From contig CANLQE010000001.1 in NCBI GenBank assembly GCA_947493215.1, positions 1,426,001 through 1,490,000 on the forward strand: DNA of 64,000 nucleotides, given 5' to 3'. The stretch's first letter is position 1. The number at the start of each line of letters is the position of its first letter. The notes under the pieces were generated by a model, which was not told the DNA's origin, did not search any database, and saw nothing but the letters and a program-made list of their open reading frames with translations. A program made the translations under genes and the position numbers. The DNA comes from an uncultured Sphingomonadaceae bacterium. GTDB taxonomy: Bacteria > Pseudomonadota > Alphaproteobacteria > Sphingomonadales > Sphingomonadaceae. Positions 15,577-61,300 of the stretch are shown one piece after another.

Positions 15577-15585
15577 TCCAGCGGA

Positions 15586-19515: not shown

Positions 19516-19616
19516 GATAATCCCCCCTTTACGGATTTTAGCTTTATGCTTTTTTGGTTTCGTTCTTGCCCGCCTGCTATGCTCGGTTGGTTACATGAGA
19601 TACCGCCTTTCGACAA

Positions 19617-19630: not shown

Positions 19631-19683
19631 CGGATCAACAACTTTCAATGGAAAACATCACGAAGCGCCATAGCCAACCGGCC

Positions 19684-39124: not shown

Positions 39125-39526
39125 ATGATCAACAAGGTTTTAGGAACATTAGCCATCACCACCGCTGCTGTTTCAGCGATGGCATTCGCAACACCGGCTG
39201 AGGCACGGGGCGGATATAATCAAGGCTATAATGATGGATATTATCAGCAGGTTCGTGATGACCGTCGGCGCTATCGCCGGGGCGACTATTATCGCGGTGA
39301 TCGTTATCATGACCGCCGGGACGGTCGCTATTATCGCGAAAAGCGTCGCTATCGCAATGATCGTCGTCGTGGATGTGATCGCGGTACGGGTGGTACAATC
39401 ATCGGTGCGATCGCTGGTGGACTGCTCGGCAATGAAGTGGCTCGCCGCGGTGACAAGACCGAAGGAACGATCATCGGCGGCGCAGTAGGCGCGCTGGCTG
39501 GCCGCGCAATTGACGGCAACTGCTAA
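39125..39526 (+). CDS. Glycine-zipper 2TM domain protein (17-kDa surface antigen-like)
   Basis: A 133-residue precursor with a signal peptide ending TPAEA-RGG. The middle (about 30-90) is a highly basic Arg/Tyr/Asp stretch, and residues 95-128 are a glycine zipper (TGGTIIGAIAGGLLGNEVAR and GTIIGGAVGALAGRAIDGNC). No lipobox is seen. Such proteins associate with the outer membrane; role unknown. A strong terminator follows. Confidence 0.87.
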   Translation: MINKVLGTLAITTAAVSAMAFATPAEARGGYNQGYNDGYYQQVRDDRRRYRRGDYYRGDRYHDRRDGRYYREKRRYRNDRRRGCDRGTGGTIIGAIAGGLLGNEVARRGDKTEGTIIGGAVGALAGRAIDGNC

Positions 39527-39592: not shown

Positions 39593-39667
39593 TTCCTCGC
39601 GTCGCGTATCGAGGATAGGGGATCGTGGTCTGAGGCCACGGTCCCCGTTTTATGTTTATCGCATCTT

Positions 39668-42600
39668 CTATCGACGAGCCAGCATTGGCGGCACTGGGCC
39701 GACCCAATCTGAAAGATTGACCTCATCTTTAACAAAATAGGGCTTGCCCTGACTGTTGAGATAGAAGCGTTGCATTTCACTGCGGCTAAAGGGCCGTGAG
39801 CCGAGCCGCCCGAATACTGCCATCTGACCACCGGTTTCATCTACTGCCCGGTCACGATCCAATCCTTTGGACAGAGCCAAGGCTGGTTTGGGGGTGCGGG
39901 CAAAGGCGATGAGTTCCGGCATGGGCGGCGGCGAGAAACCATAATAATTGGGCTGACTATCAGGTGAGGTCAGCTGGATGACTTTCAGGCCGTTACGACC
40001 ATCTGCCACATAAGCGAATAGAGTGGCGTTGGTTGAACCGACAATCACGTCCTCGGCATCGTTCATCTGACCGCCAAATGTCTCTTTGCGATAGATGACC
40101 GGTGCTTCCGGTTTGGTGATGTTGGCGATGACCAACCCTTCATCTTTCGCGGCAATATAGGCATAAGTTCTCGCGAGATAGAGCCGCTGTGCGTTTCTGA
40201 GCGGGATGGTTCCGGATTCAACAGCCACCGGATTTTCCATCTCGGTAATGTCGAACAGTTTCACGCCCTCGGCATCGGTGACCCAGATATAGCGGAACTG
40301 CAAGGCAGACGCCCGCGCATCGGTCATCGGCATGGTCACGACATGGCGTGGTTTCAAAGGATCATCGAGGTCAATAACCACCAGTCCGCTGGTCGCGGTG
40401 ATATAGGCATAGTGACCCGCCAGCGTGATATGTTTGGCGCCGTTCAAGACACCTTCTGCATTCCAGGTAACGGCCCGTTTAAAGAAATTGTTGCGGAACT
40501 CCCCATCAGCCAGCGTGTTGATGTCAACCAGGATCAGACCTTCCTCACTATCGGTAACCACCGCGTAGTTATAGATCGGATGAAAAGCCTGCTCTTCATT
40601 GATTTCGCGCAGCTCTGCGGTGTTGCGCTCGGGCGCAATGGGTTGATTGGTCGACAGTGCCATGCAGGTCGCATTTTTCGTTTTCACATGCGTATCTTGG
40701 CCTATCGATGAGAAAGGCGCTTTGACAATACGTTCAGAGAAACCTTTATTGCCGATCGAAGCCACATCATAAGCGCGGAACCCGCCTTTGCCCTCGGCGA
40801 CAAACATATATTCACCCCGTAGCTGCAGACAGCGGACACTATCGCGCGTGCCTTGGACAACATTGGCAAATTCTTCGAGTGCCTTGGTTTCGCCGGATAA
40901 ATCATCATCCAGTCGTTCGCCGCGGACCCAGTTGATCAGCTCGCGGCCATTATCTTCAACATGCATTCGCCAATAATCAGGATAGGCATATTTTTGCAGG
41001 TAAGAACCGATAACCGCTTGCGGTTCATCCCATTCGGTGACGCGGACGGCTTCAAAGCCTTTGTCCATTCCGACCCAGGCATGCAGGCCGACAAAGTTTA
41101 CGAAATTCGTACCTTGCAGCAAGAGCTGCGACATGATTGCATTATTGTCATTGGCTTCGCTCAAGTGACAATCGGAACATTGCTTGGTTTCAGTTTTGCG
41201 AACGGTGTGCGGGAAATGGGGCGCAAAAGCCTGACTGGAAAAACCAATCGAAGAAATAGGCGGCTGTTGCACATAGATGCGTTCGCGGTTGATGTTGGTG
41301 GATGACAGTATCAGCGCTGAGGTTGAACGCACCGGCGCGATGATGCTGCTCTTGGTTGTCTGGTGACGACCAAGCTGGAACATCTGATCGCGCGCTACCT
41401 GTGGATTGTAGGTCGCATAGTTACGCGTCGTTCCACCCTCATATTTATGGCTTTCCGTTTGCCAGTTTGCCTCGATGGGCAGGTGACAGCCACCGCAGCT
41501 TGTCGTCCAACTGAGGTGACAAGTGAAGCAGACCATATTTTCGTCTTTATGCGCGCGGTCGTCCATAGGGACGCCGCTACCAAAGGTGAATTTACCTGTT
41601 TCCGCGCCGCTTTTTGACATCAGCTTGGCCCGCGCGGCTTTCTGATTAAAATCAGGATGCGCGCGGTCAACACTGTCTTTGACGAGACTAACGCGCCAGC
41701 TAATCTTGGGATCGACGATGGAACGTTGAATGAGAACGCGATTGCTGTCTTCGTCCTGCATCCATTCAAAGCGCCGTTGGCCGTCTGCATTCCGCAGCAG
41801 TGCCAAGTTGTTGCCTTTGGGCCGTGCTGCCAGATTAGAGGTCATGAGTGTCGGATAGGCGTCCGCGGTGCCGTGGCAGTCCTTACAATTAATTTCTACC
41901 GCATTGGCTACTTCGCCATAGATGAGGCCATTGCCGTGGCTGTCTTGCGCAAAGTGGCAATCAGCACATTGCATGCCAACTTCGGCATGAATGCTCATCA
42001 TGTGGACAGATTTTCCGGGATTGATGCCGGGTTCGACGAATTTTGGTTCGTCTTCTTTGCGGAATTTTTCGGGATCATCATTGTCGACAATATCACCGTC
42101 TTCATCGAGCAAATTGCCATCACGATCGCGCTTTAAAATGGCCCGGAAGTTCCAGCCATGGCCGTGATAATCCGCAAATTGCGTGTCTTTAGCTTCGCTG
42201 TTGAGGTCATAAACGTTGCGAAGGAAATCGAGGTCACCCCATAGCCCTTTGGGCGAAGCGGCCTCTGGATTCCGGTCCAATATTTTGCGGACTTCTTCGG
42301 CATCCGGATATTTTTGCTGCTTGTAGGTTTTTTGATATTCTTCGTCGCTTATGCCTTCGGGACGCGGTGTCGTGTTGTTTGGTCCGGGCCACATTAGCGG
42401 CGCATCGGATTCATAATCCCACATCGTATAGCCGAGGAAGCTGTTCAGGAAGATATTGGGTTGGTGCATGTGACAGTTCATGCATTGTGCGGTTGGAATG
42501 GCGCGCGTGAAGGCATGCTGGATCGGATGGCCTTTTTCCCGTTTCGCTGGGTCTATGTCGCCGCTGTGATCATCGGAATGGCCATCATCATGCCCGTCCC

Positions 42601-43849
42601 CATGATCTGCAGTTTTCTTGGCATAGCCGCCCTTTTTGCCATGGGCAGCATCATAGGTGCCAAATTTGCCAACGCGATGCTCGCCTTCCTTGAGGTTGCG
42701 GATCGTTGGATCTTTGGTCTGGGTCTGGCCATCACGACCGGCTTTAGCATAGATCAGGCTGTGGCGGGGTTCGCGGTCATTGGCATAGATCACGTGACAA
42801 CTGGCACAGCCGGATTGTCGATAATCGCCGGGCTGATCATTCGTGCCCATGAACCATGTGAAAGGGTCATTGAGGCGCGTCTTATGGATGTTAAGCGCTG
42901 GAATGGCGACACGTAGTCCGGTACCGGGACCGCGATTGGATTGTTTCAGATCAGGGCGACCGGGCTCTTCCAGCCGTTGGATGATCCCACCAATATTCGG
43001 CAAACCAATTTCAGGAAACTGCGTGTTGATGTTGCGTCCGCCGCGTTCAAACACGCGGAATACGTCACCCGGTGGAATAGTATGCCAAGTGGGCAGGGGA
43101 TAAAGAATGGGCAAGGCGCCGCGCTTCTTCTGTTCGTCCGTCACGGTTCCGTGCGGGTTACCAGGTGACTTGATCGTCGCGGGCTGGCCGTCGCGCGTAT
43201 AGGCTTCGCCGAAGACATAATTTTTAAACGGGACAATACCGTTATTATAGGCGGCTCCGCCCCAAAGCATTGCGCCCGTCGCCATCAAGGACCGCTCGGA
43301 CGCCTCAATAATTTCCATATGGCAAGCGCCACAGGATTCCCGCGCTACGCGATAATCGGAAGGATTGACGAAGCGGACAAATTCCGGAGATTCCTTGTTC
43401 AGCAGCGTGTAGCTGCGTTTCGGGTTAGCCGAAGAGGGCCAGTGCCAAGTTTCAGGATATTTGGGGAGGACATGCGCTTTTTTGAGCGCATACATATATT
43501 GTGGGCTTTTCTTGCCCCAGTCATTGTCGCCATTGACGCTGGCATCTCCGCCGTGACAATCGACACAGCCGAGCACTACGGCAGGTGTCTCGTGCATCGT
43601 CTTCTGGTCGCTGTCGGTATGACAGGAAACACAGCCCGTGCTTTTGGCATTTGCCGCATCCCATGTCTGGTTTTGCGGTGCAGGCGGCGTAAACGTGTAG
43701 TCAATTTTTTGAGCCTTCTCTTTACCTGCTGCGAGGACTTGAGAAGAACCGAACACAAGCAATAGAGCGGCAAAAGCAAGCGCAACTCCGCTCCGCATCA
43801 CGTCAGGAGTACGTGATATTGATAACTTGGAGGGAGAAGAAAGCTGCAT
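39668..43849 (-). CDS. Giant secreted decahaem cytochrome c with LVIVD beta-propeller
   Basis: About 1,393 residues from the ATG at 43849, one base after the stop of the barrel gene; an internal ATG at MRSGVALAFAALLLVFGSSQ is an alternative and supplies the signal sequence. Ten CxxCH sites lie in roughly the first 900 residues: CVSCH, CVDCH, CGACH, CASCH, CMNCH, CADCH, CKDCH, CFTCH, CGGCH, CSDCH. A His/Asp-rich loop (KTADHGDGHDDGHSDDHSG) and a GNLLDEDGDIVDNDDPE segment suggest divalent-metal binding. The C-terminal ~400 residues are LVIVD-type propeller repeats (YAYITATSGLVVIDLDDPLK, YIWVTDAEGVKLFDITEMEN, YAYIAAKDEGLVIANITKPE). Likely a surface or periplasmic electron carrier working with the upstream barrel; substrate unknown. 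Confidence 0.92.
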   Translation of the reverse strand: MQLSSPSKLSISRTPDVMRSGVALAFAALLLVFGSSQVLAAGKEKAQKIDYTFTPPAPQNQTWDAANAKSTGCVSCHTDSDQKTMHETPAVVLGCVDCHGGDASVNGDNDWGKKSPQYMYALKKAHVLPKYPETWHWPSSANPKRSYTLLNKESPEFVRFVNPSDYRVARESCGACHMEIIEASERSLMATGAMLWGGAAYNNGIVPFKNYVFGEAYTRDGQPATIKSPGNPHGTVTDEQKKRGALPILYPLPTWHTIPPGDVFRVFERGGRNINTQFPEIGLPNIGGIIQRLEEPGRPDLKQSNRGPGTGLRVAIPALNIHKTRLNDPFTWFMGTNDQPGDYRQSGCASCHVIYANDREPRHSLIYAKAGRDGQTQTKDPTIRNLKEGEHRVGKFGTYDAAHGKKGGYAKKTADHGDGHDDGHSDDHSGDIDPAKREKGHPIQHAFTRAIPTAQCMNCHMHQPNIFLNSFLGYTMWDYESDAPLMWPGPNNTTPRPEGISDEEYQKTYKQQKYPDAEEVRKILDRNPEAASPKGLWGDLDFLRNVYDLNSEAKDTQFADYHGHGWNFRAILKRDRDGNLLDEDGDIVDNDDPEKFRKEDEPKFVEPGINPGKSVHMMSIHAEVGMQCADCHFAQDSHGNGLIYGEVANAVEINCKDCHGTADAYPTLMTSNLAARPKGNNLALLRNADGQRRFEWMQDEDSNRVLIQRSIVDPKISWRVSLVKDSVDRAHPDFNQKAARAKLMSKSGAETGKFTFGSGVPMDDRAHKDENMVCFTCHLSWTTSCGGCHLPIEANWQTESHKYEGGTTRNYATYNPQVARDQMFQLGRHQTTKSSIIAPVRSTSALILSSTNINRERIYVQQPPISSIGFSSQAFAPHFPHTVRKTETKQCSDCHLSEANDNNAIMSQLLLQGTNFVNFVGLHAWVGMDKGFEAVRVTEWDEPQAVIGSYLQKYAYPDYWRMHVEDNGRELINWVRGERLDDDLSGETKALEEFANVVQGTRDSVRCLQLRGEYMFVAEGKGGFRAYDVASIGNKGFSERIVKAPFSSIGQDTHVKTKNATCMALSTNQPIAPERNTAELREINEEQAFHPIYNYAVVTDSEEGLILVDINTLADGEFRNNFFKRAVTWNAEGVLNGAKHITLAGHYAYITATSGLVVIDLDDPLKPRHVVTMPMTDARASALQFRYIWVTDAEGVKLFDITEMENPVAVESGTIPLRNAQRLYLARTYAYIAAKDEGLVIANITKPEAPVIYRKETFGGQMNDAEDVIVGSTNATLFAYVADGRNGLKVIQLTSPDSQPNYYGFSPPPMPELIAFARTPKPALALSKGLDRDRAVDETGGQMAVFGRLGSRPFSRSEMQRFYLNSQGKPYFVKDEVNLSDWVGPVPPMLARR

Positions 43850-43850
43850 A

Positions 43851-45980
43851 TCAGAAGGCCAATATAGCGTTGAAAAGAATGGAATAATGAAAATCACGCT
43901 TGTCTGTCTGGTCAAACAAATCTCTGAAGCCTTTTCCGGGAAGCAAGGCAGCGCCAGACAAACGGAACACTAAGTTTTGAGTGGCTTTGGGGCGGTAAAT
44001 TGCCGCAGTCGACAAGTCCCAACCGATATCCTTGGGTATGGAGCCTTCGACGCGGAGCGCTTCAAGGCTCTCGGTTTTGTGGAACCACAAATGGTTGGCA
44101 TTGACCGATAGCCGGAAGTCAGGGGTCAAATCTGCATCAACCCCGACGCCTGCCAAGATCGTGCCGGGATTGTTGAAATTGCTTTGGCCCTGTTCTTTCG
44201 AAGACCGCAGCGAGTTGAGGATACCATTGCGACCATTGATGCTGATCGCCCGGCCACCACCGGCGAAAGGAATTGTCTGCCTGATCCAGTAGCTTGTATC
44301 AGCACCGGCAAAAATCGGGTTCTCGAAAATCGAGTCAAAACCCGCTTCGGTGTTGTTGTAGGGATTGCCATCACCGCTCGCGAATAAGCCGGATGCCCGG
44401 AACCGCAAGAAGTCGACATCATAACTGGCTTCTGCTGCCGCAAAATAGGCAGCGATTTTAGCCGGTTCGCTGGTAAAGATACTGTTGCGGTCTTCGCCAA
44501 ATGCGCCGTAAATTTGACCTGTAACGTTAATCCGACCGATCCGGCCATCCACCGCATAACCGGGATAGACCACGTCATAAGCACGTCCGCGCAAATCGCC
44601 GATCAGGGCAGGGCGTACCGGGAAGCCGTTATCGTCAATCTCGATATCGCTCTTCTCGCGGTTCATATTATAGGTGACGCTGAACTGACTGGTTAAGCCG
44701 ACAAAGGGCAAATCCTGACGATAGAGATTAGCAAAAAATATGTAGCTTTCGCGCGGCGTCTGAAAAATATCGTTCAGGCCGCTGTTGGTATCTTTTTCCA
44801 GCTGCACAAAAGCGCCGAGATTATACTGCACACGATTGTTGTCGCGCGTGCCGAACAGGCGGAAGCCGAGTTGGTTATCCTGAAACAGAAAGCCCCGGAA
44901 ATCGGCCTGCATCGGCTGGATACCGATGCGGAAACTGTCAAAATCATAGCGCGCTGAGGTGTTGCGGATATGATAATCAAAAAAGGCTTCCTGCACGCCG
45001 ACAAAATAGTCGGTGCGGTTGGAAGTTTTTGATGGCTCGACAAACAGTACCCGGCGTTCTGGCACGTTTACATGGTTGATTTGCGTCGCCAACGTTAGCC
45101 GATATTCGACATCCGGCGGCTTATAGGCGGTGGAGCCTTTGATCAGCGCAAAGCCGGTAATGAAAGTCTGCGCATAGACTTCCGATCCTGAGCGGCCGAA
45201 TACATCGATGCTATTGGACCGTTCCGTTGTCTGCACGCCCACAGGAATGGGGAAACTGCGTGGTTCGATAACCGTGTCAGAAATTGCGTTGACGACAAAA
45301 AACCAGTCATCGCCCTTCAAGAAGGACGGTTTTTTGTCTTCCGGGATTGGCTTGTCACCCTTTAGAACATTCTGTCCATAGGGATCGGAGGTCGGGCGGC
45401 AATTGGCCCGCAGAGCGCCAAAGACCTTGTAGATCGACTGATCGCTGCCTTTTTGTGGGCATAATGTTTGCAATATCCGCCAGCGATCCGGGACCGGGAA
45501 CTCATCGGTTGGAAAGGCTTCTGGCGGCGGCGCGCTGATAGCTCCGGGATTATTTTGGGTTACGCGGTCTGGCAGTTCTTTGGGAACACCGGGGCGACGA
45601 CGGCCATCTATCAAGGCTTCATCCGCCTCCAATCCGTCAAAATCCATTTCCAATTGTTCAGGTTCCGCCGCAGCGGGACTGGCTTCTGTCGGCGTCGTAA
45701 TCGGCAGGTCGGATGGTGAAACGGCGTCTTCTTCCTCAGGATCTGGGCCGCCAACGGCGGTTATGCCAGCGCCTTCATCCAATTGCGCAACATCAAAATT
45801 CGAATTTTCAATGCTCATCCAGTCAAATTGCTCACCCGCTAACAATGCGGTCAGCGACGTTTCCATCTCTTCGACGGATAAGCGCTGTGCTTCCATCTGC
45901 TCTGCCTGACCAGACATCACTGCCATGATGGGCATGAAGGAAGAAGAGAGTGCGGGCACTTTCGTTACAGCCCTTCGCAA
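43851..45980 (-). CDS. Large outer-membrane beta-barrel of the cytochrome operon
   Basis: A 709-residue protein. A short signal-like N terminus is followed by ~120 residues of acidic, Pro-rich linker (GPDPEEEDAVSPSDLPITTP region). A Cys pair occurs in RILQTLCPQKGSDQSIYK and ALRANCRPTS. The rest is alternating aromatic/polar strands (for example FRIGIQPMQADFRGFLFQDN, YNLGAFVQLEKDTN), ending YSILFNAILAF with the terminal Phe typical of Bam substrates. The start is uncertain: ATG at 45980, overlapping the previous gene by 16 bases, or an internal Met near 45935. Position between two multihaem cytochromes suggests the barrel half of a porin-cytochrome conduit, but it shows no MtrB-like signature that I can recognise. 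Confidence 0.82.
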   Translation of the reverse strand: MRRAVTKVPALSSSFMPIMAVMSGQAEQMEAQRLSVEEMETSLTALLAGEQFDWMSIENSNFDVAQLDEGAGITAVGGPDPEEEDAVSPSDLPITTPTEASPAAAEPEQLEMDFDGLEADEALIDGRRRPGVPKELPDRVTQNNPGAISAPPPEAFPTDEFPVPDRWRILQTLCPQKGSDQSIYKVFGALRANCRPTSDPYGQNVLKGDKPIPEDKKPSFLKGDDWFFVVNAISDTVIEPRSFPIPVGVQTTERSNSIDVFGRSGSEVYAQTFITGFALIKGSTAYKPPDVEYRLTLATQINHVNVPERRVLFVEPSKTSNRTDYFVGVQEAFFDYHIRNTSARYDFDSFRIGIQPMQADFRGFLFQDNQLGFRLFGTRDNNRVQYNLGAFVQLEKDTNSGLNDIFQTPRESYIFFANLYRQDLPFVGLTSQFSVTYNMNREKSDIEIDDNGFPVRPALIGDLRGRAYDVVYPGYAVDGRIGRINVTGQIYGAFGEDRNSIFTSEPAKIAAYFAAAEASYDVDFLRFRASGLFASGDGNPYNNTEAGFDSIFENPIFAGADTSYWIRQTIPFAGGGRAISINGRNGILNSLRSSKEQGQSNFNNPGTILAGVGVDADLTPDFRLSVNANHLWFHKTESLEALRVEGSIPKDIGWDLSTAAIYRPKATQNLVFRLSGAALLPGKGFRDLFDQTDKRDFHYSILFNAILAF

Positions 45981-47959
45981 ACATTCTGGTCATCAGTGTC
46001 AAGAAACGGCGCAAACGGGCAGTTTACATAACGCAAACGAACCTGCGCGTCGCCAAGGTCAACCACCACATTGTCGGCACGAATGGCTTTTGGTGCATTT
46101 CCTATGCCACCCACTCTTAGGCCCGCATTATGCAACCCGAGGAAGCTGATCATATCATCCTGATCGATACCATCGCCGGAAACACCCAGGCCGCCGATTA
46201 ATTGATCCCCGCGATAAATCGGGACACTGCCAGGGAAAATCTGAATGCCATTTTCAAGTCGATTCTGTCCCGCCACGGCGTCGGGTGTGTTAGTACAGCG
46301 CATTGGCGTGTCGGTTACAGAAGCGCCGGTGACAAAGGCAAGATGCTGTCCAAGATTGGGGAAGATCAAAGCCGCCTGAAGGCCGGTCGCCAATGGATTG
46401 AAATCTTCGATCGGGCGAGACAATGGTCCCGGAGGACGTCCCAGCTCACCATCGGGAAAATAGGGACGGGATAGATTACCGCCTGAGCGATCAGCAAATG
46501 CAACTGTGCCAGTGAGCGCATTGGGATCATTTAAAAAGGTGCGTACCCGACCGACAAAGGCGGCTACATCGGTGTCAGGATTGCCGAGTAGATCGGATGC
46601 CGCAACACGGTTGGAAAAGAAGGACGCTGTCCGCGCTTTTTGAAGCGATACGTCGGTTCCGAAAATAGGCGCATCGGGAGAACGCACGATGCCCAATATT
46701 TCGCCATGGGTATCAACAACCGAGATAGAAACTTGCGCCCGGCTGTCGAGCGGTTGTCTGATCTGGGCGCGTGCCCGGGACATGATGATAAACGCTTCTT
46801 CCAATATTGCCCGTGTTTCGGCGGACGTCAGCGGCGTGGTGACGTCTGCTCCGTCTGTGGCAGCACGGATCGGAAAGCGGTTGGCGCCCGTGCCATCGGA
46901 TAGGACAAAGGCATCGCGATTTTGGAACTCGGCTGCGGTTGAGGCCCGAATACCGGACGCTTCGGTGCCATAAGCAGAGCCCGCGATGATGGCACCAGCT
47001 GTATAGCCAGTGACGGCAATCAGGTTGCCGGACGTACCATTGATAGCGGCAAAATTGCTTTGAAGCGTGGAGAGGTCACTGACCACCATATCGCTGAACC
47101 GCAGCGACGTACCGTCCACTGAAATCCGGTTGGCGGCAATAGCAGCAGGTGGAGCAAAGCCCTGAATGCCAGCAAGAGCAATGGCCTCCTCATCATCCAC
47201 GTCAGTATCAAGTATGTTGGGATCAAAACCGTAATCGCCGTCTCCCATTACGCCGATCGCGCCAACAACAACGCCATTTTTGTAGAGTGGAAGTCCACCG
47301 GGGTCGGCGGATAGGCCAAGCGGAGAACGCTTTGGTCCGATCAGCGCCATTGCACCGGGATTACCAAAACGCTGATTGAGATCGGAGCATGGCAATTGGC
47401 TGAATTGCACACCAAATAGAGGTCCGCTTTCAAGCCCCGCTGTTGTCGGCGCTGGCGGAAAATGCTCCTGAACGATCTGGCTCGCAGTCCGACTTGAAAA
47501 GGCGTTGCCTGCGCTCGATAGATATGCGCCCGTCACGGCTTTCGCGATGGCACCGGCCGCGGCAGGAACGACCACACCCTGCACATCAATACCCGGATTG
47601 TTAATCGCTCCCAAAGCGGTGCGCGCGCTTGTGGTTGCAGTGGCGCGTGCCCCATTCATTTCAAACACGGCCAAAACATTGCCGACGCGGTCAGTAACCG
47701 CGATAACCGATGGCAGATTGCGGGCGGTGGCTTCACCAACGGCTTGCGCAATTACAGTTTGGACGTCCGTGACGCTAAGCGCTTCTTGCGCAGGAGGTGT
47801 AAAAGCACCGCCATTGCCATCAACCGTCGTTGGTGGTGGAGTAGGCGATGGCGCCGGTGATGGGGTGCCACCAAAATCATTGCTATCGCCCCCGCCGCCG
47901 CAAGAGCTCAGGACCAAAGCAGCTGCTGAAATGGCAGCGGTGAAACGAAACTTCCGCAT
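45965..47959 (-). CDS. Lipoprotein with two GlcG/HbpS-like domains
   Basis: A 664-residue lipoprotein: signal peptide with lipobox ALVLSSCGGGG, then a Pro/Ser/Thr linker (GTPSPAPSPTPPPTT), then two repeats of the GlcG/HbpS (DUF336) fold. Repeat 1 (about 60-270) has VIAVTDRVGNVLAVFEMNGA, LGLSADPGGLPLYKNGVVVG and AIGVMGDGDYGFD. Repeat 2 (about 390-620) has VSISVVDTHGEILGIVRSPD and VPIYRGDQLIGGLGVSGDGI. Proteins with this fold bind haem or cobalamin-like ligands. C-terminal cysteines (VNCPFAP, NVCEGL) may form a disulfide. It overlaps the pentahaem gene stop by 1 base and the barrel gene by 16 bases. Confidence 0.88.
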   Translation of the reverse strand: MRKFRFTAAISAAALVLSSCGGGGDSNDFGGTPSPAPSPTPPPTTVDGNGGAFTPPAQEALSVTDVQTVIAQAVGEATARNLPSVIAVTDRVGNVLAVFEMNGARATATTSARTALGAINNPGIDVQGVVVPAAAGAIAKAVTGAYLSSAGNAFSSRTASQIVQEHFPPAPTTAGLESGPLFGVQFSQLPCSDLNQRFGNPGAMALIGPKRSPLGLSADPGGLPLYKNGVVVGAIGVMGDGDYGFDPNILDTDVDDEEAIALAGIQGFAPPAAIAANRISVDGTSLRFSDMVVSDLSTLQSNFAAINGTSGNLIAVTGYTAGAIIAGSAYGTEASGIRASTAAEFQNRDAFVLSDGTGANRFPIRAATDGADVTTPLTSAETRAILEEAFIIMSRARAQIRQPLDSRAQVSISVVDTHGEILGIVRSPDAPIFGTDVSLQKARTASFFSNRVAASDLLGNPDTDVAAFVGRVRTFLNDPNALTGTVAFADRSGGNLSRPYFPDGELGRPPGPLSRPIEDFNPLATGLQAALIFPNLGQHLAFVTGASVTDTPMRCTNTPDAVAGQNRLENGIQIFPGSVPIYRGDQLIGGLGVSGDGIDQDDMISFLGLHNAGLRVGGIGNAPKAIRADNVVVDLGDAQVRLRYVNCPFAPFLDTDDQNVCEGL

Positions 47960-49365
47960 TAGCGTAATGCCCTTATGGTTCTGACAGCGCTACCCAGTGC
48001 TCGCCGGAATTGCAGGGGTTTGTAGCTATTGGGTTCATCAACCGCTTTATAAGCGACATTTATCTGACCGCGCAGGCTGGCTGCCGCGGATTCACTTACC
48101 TGACCGCTGTTCACCAGTCCGTTGAGTAATGTGTCAATTGCCATCACGGCCTGTACGCTGCCTTCATAATCGGTATAGCGCGGCGAGATTGCCTGTCCGG
48201 CAATAGTTTCCATGATCTGGAAGGTTTGGTCGCGGTCAAATTGCGCGCGGGAGAAGCGATCTGCCAAGGCTGTGGCTGTCTGCCGCAAACGGGCGGCTGC
48301 TTGAATCGCTGGTCCGCGGCCTTGGCCCATGGCCGCATGAAACGCTTTGGACCGCGCGTCAAATTGCCCTGCAAGATCCGGAGCGGCCACTTTGATCGCG
48401 GCGCTCAACATGATCATATTTTCATCATTATAAGGTGGCATGCCCTCGGGAATCGGTCGGCCGGGATTGTTGACCGAAGTTGGTCGGGCAGAGGCTTCAT
48501 CATAAATCCGTCGATGGCAGCTATGGCAATCATAGAAATAAAATTCCGGGAACATGCCTTCCTGAGCAAGAGCCGGTTTTGAGAAAAGATTGAGCGAGCG
48601 TTCCAGCGCCATGGATTGACCGACAGCCCAGAAACGAACGCTGTTGGTTTTGCCCTTGCGACGAACATAATCGACATCTTCATCATGATGCTGTTGCAGC
48701 GTTGAAAAAAGGTCCAGTTCAAAAGAAATGCGAGGATGGCCTGCTGCCATGATCCGGTGGTCAACAAATTGACCGTTTTTGGCGCTGCCAAAGTGACAGT
48801 CGAGACAAGTGCTCGCACGCACTTTTGGATTTTCTAGCGGCGTAAGACCTAATGAGACGTTCTTCGCGTGATTAGCGCCAACAGCATAATGAGCCGACAG
48901 CCAGCCGGATGAAGCGCCGTGGCAGGATTCACAGCCAACGCCGTCACCCGTTTGAAAACGAGGTCCTTTTTTAGCTGCAGGAGTGCTGTGACAGCCTAAA
49001 CATTGTTGGGATGAGGACGCGTCTTTGATACCAAGGCGTTTGGCAATTGCGATGCTGCGCGGTTCACGCAATACGCGAAAGGCTCTGCTATGCGCTCCTC
49101 CAGGCGTGGATTCTTCCTGCCAGCGCATCAATTCGTCCTGGCGCACTATCTCGCCGTCGGCTTCCTGACGACCGTGGCATGTTGTGCCACCACAAGACGC
49201 AACGCCGAGGTGGGTTCCACTGCCAAGATCTTGAGCAGCTTCAACAGGAGCAGGCGCGGCAACGGAAGATATGAAGAGGGCTACGCCGGCAAGCGCAAAA
49301 CAAAATAGGCTAGCGGCCAGTATCGACCAGCTTCGCTTCCACGAAAGATTTTTCCCCATTTGCAT
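47959..49365 (-). CDS. Pentahaem cytochrome c (cytochrome c554-like family)
   Basis: A 468-residue precursor with an N-terminal signal/anchor (SWSILAASLFCFALAGVALF) and five haem-binding sites: VASCGGTTCH (CX4CH), QQCLGCH, GCESCH, TCLDCH and YDCHSCH. The layout, with ASCGGTTCHG near the N terminus and FYFYDCHSCHRRIYDEA, fits the cytochrome_C554-like multihaem family. The C-terminal ~150 residues are helical and haem-free. It is the first gene of the four-gene operon and would pass electrons in the periplasm to the downstream components. A CRP-type palindrome lies 141 bp upstream. Confidence 0.92.
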   Translation of the reverse strand: MQMGKNLSWKRSWSILAASLFCFALAGVALFISSVAAPAPVEAAQDLGSGTHLGVASCGGTTCHGRQEADGEIVRQDELMRWQEESTPGGAHSRAFRVLREPRSIAIAKRLGIKDASSSQQCLGCHSTPAAKKGPRFQTGDGVGCESCHGASSGWLSAHYAVGANHAKNVSLGLTPLENPKVRASTCLDCHFGSAKNGQFVDHRIMAAGHPRISFELDLFSTLQQHHDEDVDYVRRKGKTNSVRFWAVGQSMALERSLNLFSKPALAQEGMFPEFYFYDCHSCHRRIYDEASARPTSVNNPGRPIPEGMPPYNDENMIMLSAAIKVAAPDLAGQFDARSKAFHAAMGQGRGPAIQAAARLRQTATALADRFSRAQFDRDQTFQIMETIAGQAISPRYTDYEGSVQAVMAIDTLLNGLVNSGQVSESAAASLRGQINVAYKAVDEPNSYKPLQFRRALGSAVRTIRALR

Positions 49366-49620: not shown

Positions 49621-51057
49621 CTAAACTTTGCGGCGGATGACCAGATTGCGAATTTCGGTCATGTCCTCCATCGCGAATCTGATACCCTCTCTTCCTAGGC
49701 CGCTATCCTTGACGCCGCCATAAGGCATATTGTCAACGCGATAGGATGACACGTCGTTAATCACGACGCCGCCGACGTCTAATCGGTCCCAAGCATCCAA
49801 GGTTTTGAACAGGTCACGCGTGAAGATGCCAGCCTGCAAACCGAACTTACTATCGTTAACTTCGTCGAGCGCTGCGTTAAAATCGCTGAACTTGGAAAGC
49901 AGCGCGAGTGGGCCAAAGGCTTCCTCACGAAAAGCTGCCGCATTTCTGTCGACATTTTCTAGCAAGGTCGCTTCCAGCATATTGCCGGTGCGATTGCCGC
50001 CACAAAGTAACTTCGCTCCATCGGCAACAGCATCTTCGATCCAGCCATGCAGACGCTTGGCTTCGCCTTCGGAAATCATTGGGCCAATAAATGTGTCGCG
50101 ATCCTTGGGATCACCGGCAACTAGCGTCTTGGTTTTGGCAACCAGCATATCCTTGAACGTGTCATAGACAGATTCATGAATGATGATCCGCTGTACCCCG
50201 ATGCAGCTTTGGCCGGATTGGTAAAAGGCCCCGAAGATAATCCGTTCGAGCGCGTCTTCCAAATCGGCATCATGATCGACGATGACCGCAGCATTTCCGC
50301 CTAGTTCTAGGATGACAGGTTTCTTGCCTGCCTTGGCTTTCAAATCCCAGCCAACTCCCGGAGATCCAGTGAAAGAGAGCAGCTTGAGGCGCTCGTCCAC
50401 CGTGAACAAGTCGGCACCATCACGGCTTGCCGGTAATATTGAAAACGCACCTTTAGGCAAATCGGTTTCAGCCAGAACTTCGCCCATGATAATCGCGCCC
50501 AGCGGTGTCTTGGACGCTGGCTTCATGACAAAAGGACAACCCACTGCAATGGCGGGTGCAATTTTATGCGCAGCCAAATTGAGCGGAAAATTGAACGGCG
50601 AAATGAAGCTGCAAGGGCCGATCGGCACGCGCTTCCACATGCCCTGATAGCCTTTGGCGCGTTCGGAAATGTCCAGCGGCTGGACCTCACCATAGTTGCG
50701 TGTCGATTCCTCGGCGGCAATGCGGAACGTGTCGATTAACCGGCCAACTTCGCCCTCGGCATCTTTGATCGGTTTGCCAGCTTCAACGCATAGCGAATAA
50801 GCGAGCTCGTCAAACCGTTCTTTGAATCGATCGACGCAATGTTGCAGCACATTTTGCCGTTCATAGCTCGCCATGCGCGCCATGGGTTCGGCAGCTTCCA
50901 CCGCTCCGGCAATGGCTTCCTCAATCACATCAGGTGTTGCCAAAGCCGTCCGGAAAGCCACCTCGTTGGTGAACTTGTCCGTAACTTCCAGATCTTCATT
51001 GGGCTGGGCAGCAACATTATTGAGGTAAAGCGGATAGACGTCTTTCAATTTTGTCAT
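49621..51057 (-). CDS. Aldehyde dehydrogenase family protein
   Basis: A 478-residue NAD(P)-dependent dehydrogenase. The catalytic Cys is in YQSGQSCIGVQR and the general-base Glu in PVILELGGNAAVIV; ISPFNFPLNLAAHKIAPAIA and the C-terminal PYGGVKDSGLGREG are conserved. It resembles the glyceraldehyde/lactaldehyde dehydrogenase-like group; the true substrate is unknown. It lies 11 bases downstream of the acetolactate-synthase-like gene, so the two are one operon: the TPP enzyme may make or consume the aldehyde's precursor. Confidence 0.94.
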   Translation of the reverse strand: MTKLKDVYPLYLNNVAAQPNEDLEVTDKFTNEVAFRTALATPDVIEEAIAGAVEAAEPMARMASYERQNVLQHCVDRFKERFDELAYSLCVEAGKPIKDAEGEVGRLIDTFRIAAEESTRNYGEVQPLDISERAKGYQGMWKRVPIGPCSFISPFNFPLNLAAHKIAPAIAVGCPFVMKPASKTPLGAIIMGEVLAETDLPKGAFSILPASRDGADLFTVDERLKLLSFTGSPGVGWDLKAKAGKKPVILELGGNAAVIVDHDADLEDALERIIFGAFYQSGQSCIGVQRIIIHESVYDTFKDMLVAKTKTLVAGDPKDRDTFIGPMISEGEAKRLHGWIEDAVADGAKLLCGGNRTGNMLEATLLENVDRNAAAFREEAFGPLALLSKFSDFNAALDEVNDSKFGLQAGIFTRDLFKTLDAWDRLDVGGVVINDVSSYRVDNMPYGGVKDSGLGREGIRFAMEDMTEIRNLVIRRKV

Positions 51058-51068: not shown

Positions 51069-52715
51069 TTAAACCTTTGCGCTGAGGTCCTTGATCTCGA
51101 CGTTGAGGATACGATCATTGTCGGAATAGTCCACCGGACAATCGATCAAATGAACGCCTTCGCTGTTGAGGCATTTGTCGATTGTTTCTTGCAGGTTTTT
51201 CGCGCTGGTGATCCGGTGACCGTTAGCGCCATAGCTTTCCGCATATTTGACGAAATCAGGGTTGCCATAAGTCAAACCCCAATCCTTAAAGCCCATATTG
51301 GCTTGTTTCCAACGGATCATGCCATAGCTGTTGTCATTAAGCACCAATACGGTGATGTTGAGCTTCAGCCGGACCGCCGTTTCCATTTCCTGGCTGTTCA
51401 TCATGAAACCGCCATCGCCGCAAATCGCCATGACTTTACGATCAGGATAAACCATCGCCGATGCCATGGCAGAAGGTAGGCCCGCGCCCATGGTCGCCAG
51501 AGCGTTATCGAGCAATACTGTGTTCGCTTCACGCGCCTTGTAGTTGCGTGCAAACCAGATCTTGTACACGCCATTGTCGAGGCAGATGATACCATCGGCG
51601 GGCATCTGTTCGCGAACGACTTTTACCAGATGCGGCGGGTAGATGGGACACCGCATGTCGTCGTCCATGGTGGCCGTATGCGCTTCTTCGGCCGCACGCG
51701 CTTTGTACATGTGGTCGAAATTCCACGAGCCAGATGGAACAATATCTTCTTTCATCTGCCAGATCGCATTGCCGATATCGCCGATCACTTCGATCTGCGG
51801 GAAATAGACCGGGTCTACTTCGGCAGTGTTCATGGAAACATGGATGACTTCGGTGCCACCATCTTTCATGAAAAACGGTGGTTTCTCGATTACGTCATGG
51901 CCGACATTGATGATCAGATCAGCGGACTCAATCGCGCTGTGAACAAAGTCGTTTGCTGACAAAGCGGCACAGCCCATAAATTCTTTATGGGTTTCATCGA
52001 CGACGCCTTTGCCAAGCTGTGTTGTTACAAAGGGAATGCCGGTTTTTTCAATAAACTGCGTCAGCATCCGGCCTGTAATCGTACGGTTTGCACCGCCGCC
52101 GATCACCAATATAGGCGATTTTGCGCTTTCGATTTTTTTCGTTGCGGCCCGAACTGCTTTGGGCTCCGCAATGGGACGCCGGGACAAGCTAGGCTTTATT
52201 GGAGTGGAATCTGTCTGCTCATCTGCGACATCTTCGGGAAATTCGATGTGGGTCGCACCGGGCTTTTCTTCTTCGGCCAGACGAATGGCTTCGCGCACTC
52301 GGCTAGGGATATTATCCGCAGAAGCGAGCTGGTGGGTAAATTTGGTAATCGGGCCCATCATGTCGACAACGTCGAGAATCTGGAAACGCCCTTGCTTGGA
52401 TTTCTTGATCGGCTTTTGGCCTGTGACCATCAAGATCGGCATGCCGCCCAGCTGTGCATAGGCGGCAGCGGTTACGAGATTGGTGGCGCCGGGACCGAGC
52501 GTTGCCATGCAAACACCGGTTTTCCCGGTATGGCGGGCATAGGTCGCGGCCATGAAGCCAGCGCCTTGCTCGTGCCGAGTCAGGATCAGTTGAATTTTCT
52601 TTGAGCGCGACAAGCTGTCGAGCATGTCGAGATTTTCTTCGCCGGGAACGCCGAAAAGATACTCTACGCCTTCATTTTCAAGACATTCTACGAATAAATC
52701 AGATGCTTTGGTCAT
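51069..52715 (-). CDS. Thiamine-diphosphate enzyme, acetolactate synthase large-subunit-like
   Basis: A 548-residue ThDP enzyme. The catalytic Glu is in LTRHEQGAGFMAATYA and the ThDP/Mg site in ICGDGGFMMNSQEME followed by VLNDNSYGMIRWKQ. ATLGPGATNLVTAAAYAQLGGMPIL is the POX family signature. No ilvN small subunit is adjacent. Isolated homologues paired with an aldehyde dehydrogenase are often labelled IlvB but probably act as catabolic decarboxylases or carboligases. The 167-bp upstream gap has a 10-bp palindrome at 52843. Confidence 0.92.
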   Translation of the reverse strand: MTKASDLFVECLENEGVEYLFGVPGEENLDMLDSLSRSKKIQLILTRHEQGAGFMAATYARHTGKTGVCMATLGPGATNLVTAAAYAQLGGMPILMVTGQKPIKKSKQGRFQILDVVDMMGPITKFTHQLASADNIPSRVREAIRLAEEEKPGATHIEFPEDVADEQTDSTPIKPSLSRRPIAEPKAVRAATKKIESAKSPILVIGGGANRTITGRMLTQFIEKTGIPFVTTQLGKGVVDETHKEFMGCAALSANDFVHSAIESADLIINVGHDVIEKPPFFMKDGGTEVIHVSMNTAEVDPVYFPQIEVIGDIGNAIWQMKEDIVPSGSWNFDHMYKARAAEEAHTATMDDDMRCPIYPPHLVKVVREQMPADGIICLDNGVYKIWFARNYKAREANTVLLDNALATMGAGLPSAMASAMVYPDRKVMAICGDGGFMMNSQEMETAVRLKLNITVLVLNDNSYGMIRWKQANMGFKDWGLTYGNPDFVKYAESYGANGHRITSAKNLQETIDKCLNSEGVHLIDCPVDYSDNDRILNVEIKDLSAKV

Positions 52716-55341: not shown

Positions 55342-58300
55342 TTACTCGGCAGGTTCCAGTTCATCTTGTTGCGCCGGACCACCTTGGCCGCAAGAATTGT
55401 CGCCATCCTCGCATTCGCTATTTTCGTCACCGCCAGCGTCTTCTTCACCCACCCACAGGTCATCATTGCCAGCACCGGTAACGGGCTCGTCGATCAACGG
55501 ATCATCAACATATTCCTCGGTATCCTTAATCTCGATGAGATTGGTCTCGAACGGATCGCTGACTCTCGAGCCATCATCGCTTGGCGTAACCTCTTCCTCG
55601 ATGATATTCTGCACAGGGTCCTCAATCTCTGGATCAGGCGAAGGCGTCGGTGTTGGGCTTGGCGTAGGCGTGGGTGTCGGAGTGGGCGCGGGTGTAGGCG
55701 TAGGATTGGGTGGCGGTGCACCACAACTTGACGGATCGATAATGAAACAGCCGTTGATCGTTGACAGATCATCAAAGGCAACGACCGGATCTGTGGCGAA
55801 AATTGTGTCGACGCCGATTTGGCCATCAACAATACCGTTGATCACGATATTGGCATTGCTGCCCGCGCTTAAGCCGTTGATTGTTAGGCTATCAACCGTG
55901 AAGCCGCGCCGTTGGTCAAAAGATAGGCCGGGAACGGTATTCTGGATAAACAGATCACCATCGACCACAAATTGCGCAATACCGCCTCGGATCAAGCCGT
56001 TTTCGATGTTGAGGCCATCGCTATTCTCAAGCCGCGCATCGACATCAAGGACATCCAGGCCGGCAATGTCGACAAAGGCCTGGTCGGTCATCGCATAGAT
56101 GTTCTGGGCCGTTAGCGTCATCAGTCCGACACCGCCAAAGCCGCCGCTGGCATCAGTAATCTGAATGAGCCCGCCATTGGCATTGATGCGAAGATCATCA
56201 AGAGACGTCATGTTCAATGTCGTGCCGCCAGAGGCGTTGGTCAGGTTCAAATTGCCATCAACCCGTGTCGATTGACCGGAATCAATTGTCAGCGTGCCCG
56301 AGAAGCCGATAGTGGCCGTCTGGGGACCGCTGATATTGCTACCGGCTTGGATCGTTACATCTTGAATGATCAAATCCGGCGTGGCGTTGCCGGTCTGGGC
56401 GACAAACAGGGTCAGATCCTGATTGGACTGGATCCGGTTAAACTCATCATTGTTGAGGCTAAACACGCCGGTGGTTCCCGCCCCGCCCAAAATCGCTTGA
56501 TTGGTGCCGTTGCTCTCGATGAAAATATCGTTGGTCTGCGTAAATTCGCCAATCTGGCCTGAGGTACCGATGTTGATATCGGCGGATGACAAATCGATGG
56601 TTGCCCCAGTTGCAAGGGCCTGAATGTCGATCAGATTGCCGGCTGTGATCGTCAAGTTGTTTGCCGCTGATGTGTCGCTGTTGATGATCGCATCTACTGC
56701 TGCGGTAATGGTTATATTGCCGCCATTGGTCACGACATTTTGGCTCGTCGCTCCACCTGCGGCGGCAATCGGCATCGCGCCGACGGCCGTTGGTGTCGCC
56801 AGTGTCAGATTGACCGTGCTAGAACCACCGGTGCTAGAGAGTAGGATGTCACCACTTGCGTTTGCGCCGCGTACATTCAGGTTTCCCGCCGATGCGATGT
56901 CGATATTACCATCGCTGGCGTCCGCTCTGACTTCCAGATTTCCCGTTGATCTTAGAAAAATATCTTGGCCGTCGGCAATCACGTTACCCGTTAGATCAAC
57001 ATTGTTACGTACAGCAATATTCCCGTCCGAGGCGTTCAGAGAGGCATCATCGCCGATGATGGTTTGTAACTCGATGCCTTGGTTGCCTCTGACACTGATG
57101 AAGTTAGACTGGTTTTGCTCTGTGACCAATGATCCGACGGTTACGACACCGGACGAGTTGATATCGATACCGCTATCGCTTGTGATACTATTACCGGTCA
57201 GATCGCCGGTTGAGCTGATGCTCGCAGTATCAACTGAATCAATGGTGTCGAATGTCATCTGGCCGGTCGCCAAGGTGCTGATCGAGCCGGCAGAGGTCAG
57301 CGAACCGGCATTCAGATCACCGCCCAACGCGAAGATGAACATGGGTTGGGACGCCGTGACGTTGTTTACGGTCAGCGCGCCATTGCTGGTGATATTGATA
57401 TCATCGCCGACCACATCACCAACAACTATTGCGTCGCCGTCTATGTCAATATCGCCGCCGTCAAGATCCATCGTTTCGACCATGGCCGCGCTCAGATCGA
57501 TCAAATCTCCTGCCGCTACATTTCCTATTGCGATCGATGCGGCATCGACCGTTACTATTTGACCAGCGCTAAGCTCTCCACCGAAAACGTCATTATCAGA
57601 GAAAAGGGTGATATCGCTATTCGCATCAAGGTTACCGAAGCCGATGCTGCCGCTTACGATATCAATATTTTCCGCACCCGAGGTCCCTCCAACAAATACC
57701 GAGTCAGGCGCTGACAACAATATATCTGTCCCGGGCACGTTGATCTGGTCAAAGCTCAAACTCTCACCAGCAGAATAATCTACGTCACCAACGCCAACGG
57801 TCAATATGCCAACATCCATGCTTCCAGCCACCGAGAAAGAGCCTTCTGGCACGCCGCCACGGCCGTCCACTGTAGTAAGTTCGCCGCCAGTATTAATAGC
57901 GCCGGCCGAAATGCTATCGGTAACCGTAATTCCAATATCATTGTCGCTATTGAGCGAGCCGGAGCCCAGTAAGCTGCCAGCGGCTTCGACGCCCAACAAA
58001 CCGCTGGTTAGTTCCGCATCACGCAGATCTACGTCACCCTCTGTACTGTTAACAAATATTTCGTCACTGGCGACGAAGCGCGAGGGTATGCCATCTGCGC
58101 CCATCACGATATTGAGGCGGGTGGAAACCAATATCCGATTGGCAATAATATCACCATTTTCAATGATAGCCTGAATAGGAACGCCGGACTGACCAATTTG
58201 AACGATATTGTCGGCACTTAACGCGCCGAGACATAAATTACCTTCAACGCAGCTCGCGCTCAGCAGGCCATTATCATCGGACTGGCCGATGGCTGCGATC

Positions 58301-61300
58301 ACGGCATTAGAAGGTGCGTTGTTAATATCAGCGCTTATTGAACTTGCCGAAATTGTGCCACCAAGGCCGTCAATGGCATCTGCCGTCAAAACTACTGAGA
58401 AGTCATTGGCATTGATATCACCTGCCGCAACGATGGAAGCAATCGGGGTCAGCGGCGTGCTTAACAATGGAATTCCTAAGCCGATATCGCCCGCTCGCAA
58501 TACGAGATTATTTTCGCTCAAGAACGGGATCGACGGATCGGCCGTTTCCACAGGATTGTTGGCAGCGGTAATGCTCGCACCGGATTGGATTATTATGTCA
58601 TCACCAGTCCGCACGGACAGAAGATTATCGGAAATAACATTGGCGCCCGTTTGGAAGACGGCATTTCCCCCAGCTTCAATCCGGATTGCGCCGGATGATG
58701 AAATATCCCCTGTAAAGGTTGCGCCGAAATTGGGGTCAAATTGCGGGACGGTCGGATCGTCATTACTTCCGGCCTGAACATAAATACCGTTAGACACCAA
58801 TATACCGGTACTAAACACAGAGGTCACCGCTGGCCCGGTCACAGAGGCATTGTTAAGCAAGACATTTTGTCCGGCAGACAGATCGATATTACTCAAAGCC
58901 CTTAGATCGGCGGCGGATGCATTGGTCTCCGCGCGAATGGTGATGGCAGCATCCGAATTGATGATCGACCCGGTCATGCTGTCAAATTCGCCCTGTGCCC
59001 GGGCATCGAAGCTACTGGCAACGTCAATAGATGTTGTAGCGCCCACCGTGTTGTTTGTGTGGGACACGAAAATAGACGCGCCGCTCATGACATCCATCAA
59101 GCCGCCAACTACCAATTGGCCATCACCATCATAGATAAATTCAGCATTCCCAGCCACGTCGATTGTGACATCCCCGATAACGGTGATAGGCCCGCTGTTG
59201 CCAGTCATGAAGAACCCGCTGGTCGGCCCAGCTGCGCCCAATGTGCTTGCGTTCAGGGAGGCGAGACTGATGAGGCCAGCCGGGTCTGTCGATGTATCTG
59301 TAATTTCTATCCGTCCGCTGACGCCCGTGCCCAGTGGTGGGAGAACAATGTCTACGCCGACAGGCGGAACGCCGGCACCCTGTGCACCGCTTGCTTGGGC
59401 TACAACATTGCCTGCGGTAATTATGCCAGGACTACCTTCTTGCACTTCCAATATGGTCGTGCCGCCAATGCCGTCTCCAGCGCTACCATTTGTACCAAAT
59501 GATATACCTAGCCCGCCATCGCCGCCTCCGGCGCCGGCGTTACCACCGGTACCATTGGCAAAGTAATTAATATCACCTGCTGTAATCGTGCCGCCTTGCG
59601 CGAGAAGGGTCGGCATGCCGCCCGTACCCACGCCACCATTACCGCCGGCACCAGGCGTGCCGCCACTAAGCATATCAACGCTACTGCCCACGCCGCCGTT
59701 GCCGCCTCTGCCTGAGCTAGAGAGGTTGAACGCCTCTGGCGTTGGTGTTGGCGTTGGTGAGGGTGAAATGGGGTTAATGACAATTTCGCCGCCCGTACGG
59801 GCAACTATTTGCGCAGATCCGCCTGTTCCATCGCCGCCGTCCCCGCCATCGCCGGGGGTACCGGCGCCAAAGGTAAAGCCGCCAAAGGAACCATTTCCGC
59901 CAGTTGCGTCAGCGTTGATGACAAAGCTATTGGTATCAATATCTATAGAACCATTCGCGCCAGTAACTTGCAAAGTCGCTGTTCCACCCGTCGCACTACC
60001 GCCATCGCCACCGTTACCGCCATCACCGTCAGTGAAACCGCCGTTACCACCGGAAGCATTAGACCGGATCGTCGGTGCGTTTAAGCTGACTTGCGCATTG
60101 TTGATCGTCAATAACGCTGCGCCACCGGTGGCGTCCTCGCCATTGCCGGCATTTAATCCGGTGCCGCCTTCGCCACCGGTCGCGCTAGTATCGACGACAT
60201 AATTGGGACTGGTCAGGTCATTCTGATTGAGGTTTATGGTCGCTGCGCCGCCGATGCCTGCGCCGCCATTGCCACCATTGGCGTTCGCGGTGCCAGTGGT
60301 GTCGCCGCTGTTGGATCCGCCGTCACTGCCTATACCCAGCGATTCAACAGTAAGCTGGTTAAAGCTGATTGTACCGGTTGTATTGTTGAAAGTTGCCGAG
60401 CCGCCGATGCCGTCGGCGCCCTGACCGGCTGCGCCACCAAGAACAAACGGCGTATTGGTGAAATCGGGGCTCGTGCTGCCAGCCTCTCCACCATAGCCGC
60501 TTGTACTAATTAGCACTTCTTGGGCATTTACGACGGACGTGCCGTCAAGGTTGAAAGTCGCTGTGCCGCCGGTTCCAGAGCCGCCATCACCACCATCTGT
60601 GCCGCGGCCTCTGCCACCTCTACCGCTTATGAATATGGAAGCGCCAGAACGTGAAGCATTGCCAAGTGCATCTACCGTGAGCTGATTGACATCCAATGAG
60701 CCAGATGTTGCATTAAAGCTCGCATTACCACCAGTTCCAGCCCCCCCGTTACCGGCTTGTTCGCCGTTACTATCATCACCGCGGGTGCCGCTGCCGCCCA
60801 ATCCACTGGCGACAACAGAAAATGTATCTACCGTGGCACTGCTGCCGTTCAAGTTGATGATGACATCGCCGCCGGTTGCATCACCGCCATCAGCGGCATT
60901 ACCAAATATGTCGTGGCCAGCAAAACCGGCAAAACCGTTGCTCTGCACCGTTATGTCGTCGGCAACAAATGTTCCACCTAACAGATCAAGTGTAACAGTC
61001 CCGCCAAAGGCATCACCGCCGTTGCCAGTGGGCTCCGCAGCGCCGGTTTCAACATCAGAGAAAATTGATCCATCCGTCGAAAAACTCAAATCGCCAAGCG
61101 TCATTGACCCGGAGTTGCCCTGTAAAAGGAGCCTTATCGTTCCGCCAGTTCCTATGCTTTCACCATCAACACTGCCGCGACCATCTGCCTCAGCAAACAG
61201 GTTGTCAGTAAAACTAATGGATGAATTGTCTGCGAAGATCAGGATATTGCCGCCGACACCATTTACGGTATTGCCACCAAAGCCGAGGACGTTTGCATCG

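Follow-up and report, generated by a model that had tools for sequence, protein, structure and literature searches.

Multihaem electron export through the cell envelope has been described mainly in Geobacter, Shewanella and iron oxidisers, and the MtrB barrel comprises 26 strands. According to an excerpt of PMC6148476, a porin-cytochrome conduit consists of a multihaem periplasmic cytochrome, an integral outer-membrane barrel and an outer-membrane lipoprotein carrying a redox cofactor, and the ExtABCD and ExtHIJKL clusters of Geobacter sulfurreducens include a barrel with 18 predicted strands (ExtB) and a pentahaem periplasmic cytochrome (ExtK). In this study we analysed a stretch of 64,000 nucleotides (the window; G000:C1:1426001-1490000) of the 3.69 Mb genome of an uncultured Sphingomonadaceae bacterium, which carries an operon of four minus-strand genes, designated A, B, C and D. 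The first-pass annotation of this DNA had read the operon as an outer-membrane electron-transfer system resembling MtrAB, PioAB and MtoAB, with a new layout, in a sphingomonad. We propose, with a probability of roughly 0.58, that A-D make up the outer half of an envelope chain of seven proteins fed by NAD(P)H, in which D would be the terminal oxidoreductase at the outer membrane, acting together with the barrel C. The inner half would be formed by a flavoprotein (FLV), a membrane protein (TM) and a cytochrome with an FHA domain (FHAcyt). The seven-protein system appears to be undescribed and to recur in scattered relatives; literature searches, which covered open-access sources, found no described counterpart.

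The identity of the four genes as annotated earlier (a pentahaem cytochrome, an HbpS-like lipoprotein, a barrel and a decahaem protein with LVIVD repeats) was borne out by the haem motifs, the Pfam matches and the barrel model (Table 1). A search with C yielded 148 relatives, the best 80 of which were kept for locus counts. The genome search for the four-gene order that had been suggested with the annotation gave a uniform result: order and strand were kept in all 73 loci showing all four genes, and in the remaining seven the stretch begins or ends within the operon. The overlaps of 1 to 16 bases reported between the genes were confirmed in part. A and B overlap by 1 base. The 16-base overlap of B and C requires TTG 45980 as the start of C; the true start probably lies downstream, e.g. 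at 45935. No overlap is probable between C and D, as the two candidate starts of D, ATG 43798 and ATG 43849, lie 52 and 1 bases past the end of C, and the former, with a signal-like sequence behind it (by reading), is probably the one used. A 13-pair terminator-like hairpin (39618-39646) was found between D and a convergent glycine-zipper gene (39125-39526).

Table 1. Features of the operon, its upstream neighbours and the partner locus. Positions are those of the window unless a contig is given.
Feature	Position	Strand	Basis or remark
A, probably exported pentahaem c-type cytochrome, cytochrome c554-like	47959..49365	-	4 CxxCH + 1 CX4CH
Haem-motif region of A	48514..49194	-	motif positions 58-284
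B, HbpS/GlcG-like protein, lipoprotein-like here (Cys20)	45965..47959	-	PF03928
C, predicted 18-strand outer-membrane barrel of no known family	43851..45980	-	structure model, fold search
D, decahaem c-type cytochrome with C-terminal LVIVD domain	39668..43915	-	motifs, PF08309
Ten CxxCH motifs of D	41165..43633	-	motif scan
LVIVD-repeat (propeller-like) region of D, limits approximate	39926..40858	-	PF08309 best stretch 1160-1188; limits by reading
Aldehyde dehydrogenase, upstream of A	49621..51057	-
Thiamine pyrophosphate (TPP) enzyme upstream of the aldehyde dehydrogenase; acetolactate synthase large subunit by NCBIfam	51069..52715	-
FLV-TM-FHAcyt in the genome of the window	G000:C4:229309-234524		other contig than A-D

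A six-frame scan of the window counted 26 CxxCH motifs; A and D hold 14, and B and C none. The motif counts exclude rows that have open ends or internal stops. The pattern of four CxxCH and one CX4CH in A was kept in 72 of the 73 counted rows (74 relatives found), and the ten CxxCH of D in 63 of 65 (79 found). A diverse alignment of 25 rows of A contained exactly five invariant non-motif histidines besides the five of the motifs, the haem region of D (32 rows) 13 besides ten, and FHAcyt (19 rows) exactly ten besides ten; these numbers are sufficient for bis-histidine haems in all three proteins. A is presumably exported to the periplasm, judging from its signal-like N-terminus. D matched PF08309 (E 1.6e-13) and several c-type cytochrome models. 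B matched PF03928 (E 3e-24) in four stretches, and its lipobox-like Cys20 was shared by 19/19 near rows; among the distant rows such a box stood at a plausible N-terminal place in only 4/21. In one genome of the same genus (G022:C1:289543-293876) D gave three matches, spread over two open frames of 894 and 633 residues, which reflects either a decaying gene or an assembly error.

The evidence for an inner half comes from 24 distant loci. B and C were present in 24/24 and D in 23/24 of them, the exception (L115) ending just past C, and in 21/24 the genes for FLV, TM and FHAcyt lay in the same run and on the same strand as B and C. In some Sphingomonadales loci the three genes stand just downstream of D on the opposite strand. 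FLV (about 800 residues) contains a Pyr_redox, two cyclic-nucleotide-binding and 4Fe-4S domains, and TM (about 280 residues) is a membrane protein with five invariant histidines that probably binds b-haem. FHAcyt combines its FHA domain with one hydrophobic stretch (by reading) and ten CxxCH motifs, which were present in 37/37 rows, one cut row being left out. With this cytoplasm-to-periplasm redox locus as partner, and with the class-wide co-occurrence described below, the sequences give good grounds for assigning A-D to the electron-transfer systems of the envelope. That part of the first-pass annotation is thus retained; its analogy with MtrAB, PioAB and MtoAB was not supported as homology, A and D bear no conserved lipobox, and the conservation of D resembles that of an enzyme more than that of a surface wire.

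In a sample of 398 genomes of the phylum, C was found in 12: eight of the 19 genomes of the own family (the window genome included), two of other families of the class and two of other classes. A sample of 385 genomes of the class contained C in 29, spread over 14 families; the layout is therefore not particular to sphingomonads. In the class sample, at a cut-off of E < 1e-100 that was chosen for FHAcyt and A after the tables had been seen, and among genomes that are related rather than independent, FHAcyt was present in 35 and A in 36; all 29 genomes with C fell within the 35 with FHAcyt, and all 35 within the 36 with A. At E ≤ 0.001 the numbers rose to 76 and 65, the added matches being partial or weak. 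FHAcyt occurred without C in six class genomes; one of them (G456) has part of B at the end of a contig, and its C is probably missing from the assembly. Within the genus of the window, D and FHAcyt were each present in 23/24 genomes; in other families of the order, D was found in 0/16 and FHAcyt gave one weak match in 16. Among the best 80 of the 148 relatives of C, 78 carried Sphingomonadales titles, the other two being metagenome-assembled genomes called Alphaproteobacteria and Proteobacteria, and the closest relatives bearing a genus name were Sphingorhabdus and Parasphingorhabdus. Named carriers of the operon include Parasphingorhabdus marina as well as Sphingopyxis and Sphingobium species. 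A plasmid search with C returned 13 records (12 Sphingobium, one Sphingopyxis), all annotated as hypothetical protein. Two plasmids typed as conjugative carry the operon (loci L186 and L188), namely pMSHV of Sphingobium herbicidovorans (959 kb) and pMC4 of Sphingopyxis indica (404 kb).

In the proposed chain, cytoplasmic FLV would take electrons from NAD(P)H and pass them through FAD and then 4Fe-4S to TM, the b-haems of which would hand them to the ten haems of FHAcyt. The latter would be anchored by its hydrophobic stretch with the FHA domain in the cytoplasm, and would reduce the five haems of A and, through A, the ten of D, held at the outer membrane by C and B. D would most likely be substrate-specific and reduce a small acceptor arriving through or at C, and we lean slightly towards a position at the periplasmic face of the barrel. 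Gene content, haem-motif counts, co-occurrence and the conservation ranking are direct observations; the topology, the order and direction of transfer, the location of D and its substrate we infer from the genes. An outward direction is preferred because FLV is a flavoprotein of the NAD(P)H type. Nothing in the sequences fixes the direction, so that D might instead oxidise extracellular donors and send electrons through FLV to NAD(P)+; such inward flow would run uphill with no visible energy coupling, next to genes that resemble NAD(P)H producers, and we consider it improbable. The bacteria carrying the chain are largely aerobic. Finding it in sphingomonads and in further families of the Alphaproteobacteria would extend the host range of this kind of export and, if the reading is true, also its electron source (NAD(P)H instead of quinol) and its control (cyclic nucleotides and FHA); the seven genes provide a concrete marker set.

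The assignment of D as the terminal enzyme draws on a ranking of conservation. Median identities of the window genome to the distant loci (13 of 24, giving 12 or 13 values per protein) were 57% for D, 50% for C, 49% for FLV, 48% for B, 41% for TM, 36% for A and 30.5% for FHAcyt. In Geobacter, as stated in an excerpt of PMC12977616, outer-surface cytochromes change fastest and inner-membrane ones slowly; the ranking found here is reversed, with D the most and FHAcyt the least conserved. D is therefore read as an enzyme rather than a surface wire. Such conservation would follow from a specific substrate or from tight association with B and C.

Several points weigh against the proposed chain. Contacts with B and C, instead of catalysis, could account for the conservation of D. 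Its structure prediction was unusable (predicted local distance difference test score, pLDDT, 45; predicted template modelling score, pTM, 0.28), so that no catalytic haem or active site was seen, and its 13 invariant non-motif histidines permit bis-histidine ligation at all ten haems, a feature also of wires. FLV might work as an electron acceptor as well as a donor, quinone is a possible partner of TM, and the order of transfer is read from genes and not from proteins. The two halves stand at separate loci in the genus of the window. Finally, three distant loci (L113, L150 and L153) showed no FLV, TM or FHAcyt in the stretch read; the contig of L150 is short, and L153 breaks off shortly past B.

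C gave no match to Pfam or NCBIfam at E ≤ 1 or to PHROGs, and neither C nor D had a match at E ≤ 1 in a sequence search of the PDB. A model of C built from 21 sequences was of low confidence (mean pLDDT 53, pTM 0.55) and contained 18 strands within residues 226-708, on which basis C is predicted, with the same low confidence, to be an integral outer-membrane beta-barrel. The best Foldseek match in the PDB was the alginate exporter AlgE (E 1.8e-13, target TM-score about 0.6), followed by chitoporins and OprD/Occ porins; MtrB was not among the matches listed for the model (50 of 817). C differs from AlgE and OprD/Occ in sequence (about 10-12% identity), in having no Pfam match and in its cytochrome company. 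The likeness to MtrAB, PioAB and MtoAB is confined to the pairing of a multihaem cytochrome with a barrel in one operon. An identification of C as MtrB or PioB was rejected, since no PF11854 match was found for C or in the genome, although 14 control genomes also gave none over the cut-off and the sensitivity of this search is not demonstrated; the model has 18 strands and an AlgE/OprD-like fold, and the partner is pentahaem rather than decahaem. Against TIGR03508 (the DmsE family of MtrA-type decahaem cytochromes), A scored 18 bits with a cut-off of 192.2. It matched cytochrome c554 (PDB 1bvb) over about 87 residues (E 1.1e-6 by profile), from which it differs by its five haem motifs, one of them CX4CH, and its longer C-terminal domain. 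Like ExtABCD and ExtHIJKL, the cluster combines a multihaem periplasmic cytochrome, a barrel and a further multihaem cytochrome; here, there is no lipoprotein cytochrome, and an HbpS-like protein and the flavoprotein/FHA-cytochrome input module are added. None of the NCBIfam Ext models reached its cut-off.

When the locus is set against the three conduit parts named above, A corresponds to the multihaem c-type cytochrome, its periplasmic location being presumed. The lipoprotein is less readily assigned: B is lipoprotein-like and has no c-haem motif, and D has ten haem motifs and no conserved lipobox (1/20 and 0/32 rows; for A, 0/21 and 0/25). A true outer-membrane conduit, which would make use of the chain proposed above, with A or part of D inside the barrel, D outside and electrons passing to minerals, other cells or electrodes, seems unlikely to us. 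The missing lipoboxes and the AlgE- and OprD-like fold of C argue against it, as do the conservation of D, unlike that of surface cytochromes, and a computed backbone radius of about 16 Å for 18 strands versus 23 Å for 26, which would be tight for a cytochrome. The number of strands is not by itself a sufficient argument against a conduit, as ExtB of ExtABCD, a cluster needed for electrode growth, also has 18 predicted strands (excerpt of PMC6148476). Export of D is possible, since two GspD secretins scored over the cut-off in the genome of the window, and the pairing of a cytochrome with a second protein recurs in an unrelated outer module (the second protein as a barrel being a matter of reading). 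Of 13 distant loci, 11 gave 50-58% identity for the barrel part of C and two gave 66-67%; across families the value was about 53%, above expectation for a free porin, and this steadiness is taken as a possible sign of a constant partner.

The same data bear on a further alternative, in which D is a reductase confined to the periplasm, and C is an ordinary porin for the substrate that does not touch the cytochromes. The porin-like fold of C and the N-termini of D, which read as ordinary signal peptides, would fit, and 32/32 rows of D matched ExtM (NF040943), a cytochrome of selenite/tellurite operons (best E 6e-25); the match is far below the equivalog level, the copy of the window reaching 69.9-75 bits with a cut-off of 800 and a best stretch of about 50 residues. 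A general porin should be exchangeable, whereas C is as conserved as B and FLV and was seen without D only at contig ends (L060 and L115). We regard this alternative as somewhat unlikely, though worth more weight than a conduit; the odds given to the two overlap with those of the seven-protein chain and do not sum to one with them.

Loci without C suggest a wider family. L180, L181 and L182 contain A together with another pair, a pentahaem protein of 604-641 residues and a protein of 525-538 residues that had no Pfam match in the two copies scanned; L183 and L184 showed only A within the stretch. The sequences can be read as a core of FLV, TM, FHAcyt and A with exchangeable outer modules. On a tentative extension of this reading, to which we give slightly less than even odds, the loci would represent an undescribed, modular class of envelope electron export, with FLV, a b-type TM, FHAcyt and the CX4CH pentahaem cytochrome as its core and either B-C-D or a pentahaem cytochrome plus barrel-like protein as its outer module, fed by NAD(P)H with no quinol dehydrogenase evident and under the control of cyclic nucleotides. 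In L182 (10919-17022, plus strand) two copies of A flank the alternative module. In L179 a CcmH/CycH-type TPR gene of cytochrome c maturation (12737-13795, plus strand) is divergent from FLV, and Sphingopyxis likewise has related TPR genes close to the operon.

The genes upstream of A were surveyed in the 77 loci that offer 3.5 kb or more of sequence there, scoring aldehyde dehydrogenase within 2 kb and glutamate dehydrogenase within 1 kb. The aldehyde dehydrogenase/TPP enzyme pair was present in 24/77, NADP-glutamate dehydrogenase in 32/77 and either in 54/77, with both in L058 and L064; these loci are mostly close relatives and represent several lineages, not 54 events. The first-pass annotation had held that consistent linkage to a known soluble pathway would speak against electron transfer: linkage was indeed frequent, but the genes differ between lineages and are possible suppliers of NAD(P)H. 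That A-D belong to a soluble glutamate/2-oxoglutarate pathway and have only its promoter in common with it appears very improbable to us. Besides the frequent position of these genes directly upstream of A, the order TPP-ALDH-GdhA-A-B-C-D (ALDH, aldehyde dehydrogenase) in L058 and L064 and the presence of GdhA between A and B in L114 would favour it; 23/77 loci have neither within the set limits (some further off or on the other strand), 12/14 distant rows show neither in view, and exported multihaem proteins fit such a pathway poorly.

As a lead only, we consider 2-oxoglutarate decarboxylase as a possible function of the TPP enzyme and succinic semialdehyde dehydrogenase as that of the aldehyde dehydrogenase. 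The latter scores 573 bits as ALDH21, which we take to be a succinic semialdehyde dehydrogenase. With the register set on the GDGG motif, Lys385 and Lys470 of the TPP enzyme occupy the places of the two MaKGD substrate lysines derived from docking (excerpt of PMC10418658); against the decarboxylase idea, His385 of MaKGD is Tyr and Val382 is Asn in the enzyme here, and NCBIfam scores it at 878.9 bits as acetolactate synthase (cut-off 509).

A phosphodiesterase-like (cyclic-nucleotide) gene adjoins the FHAcyt end in 29/29 Sphingomonadales loci with that end in view, 11 of them from the genus of the window, and in 0/21 of the distant FHAcyt loci; the copy of the window genome scored 85 and 133 bits against two models, below both cut-offs. 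In eight loci, none from the genus of the window, a CHASE2-cyclase gene (48-55% identity) lies at most about 1.2 kb upstream of A. An FNR site upstream of A was rejected (4/74 at two mismatches versus 6.0 expected), and upstream of FLV an FNR-like site with one mismatch occurred in 2/22 loci, including the genome of the window, with no trend. A GTGA-N6-TCAC palindrome (at most one mismatch) preceded A in 11/21 loci of the genus group of the window versus 2.5 expected and in 0/53 others; these are close relatives, and the palindrome was therefore not used. The sequences searched for were those that we presume to be the FNR and CRP consensus.

Further upstream, the window contains an open frame of 2792 residues (55342-63720, minus strand) that Pfam does not match. 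In the genus group of the window, partial relatives are found some 6 kb upstream of A. Part of the frame is 37-38% identical to large proteins encoded upstream of A in Sphingobium, where a ShlB-type secretion gene stands next to them; the product is possibly a two-partner-secreted exoprotein. In L113, from another alphaproteobacterial family, a ShlB/POTRA transporter and a TPS-domain protein (14485-19899, plus strand) stand directly beside A in divergent orientation, a pairing like that upstream of A in Sphingobium.

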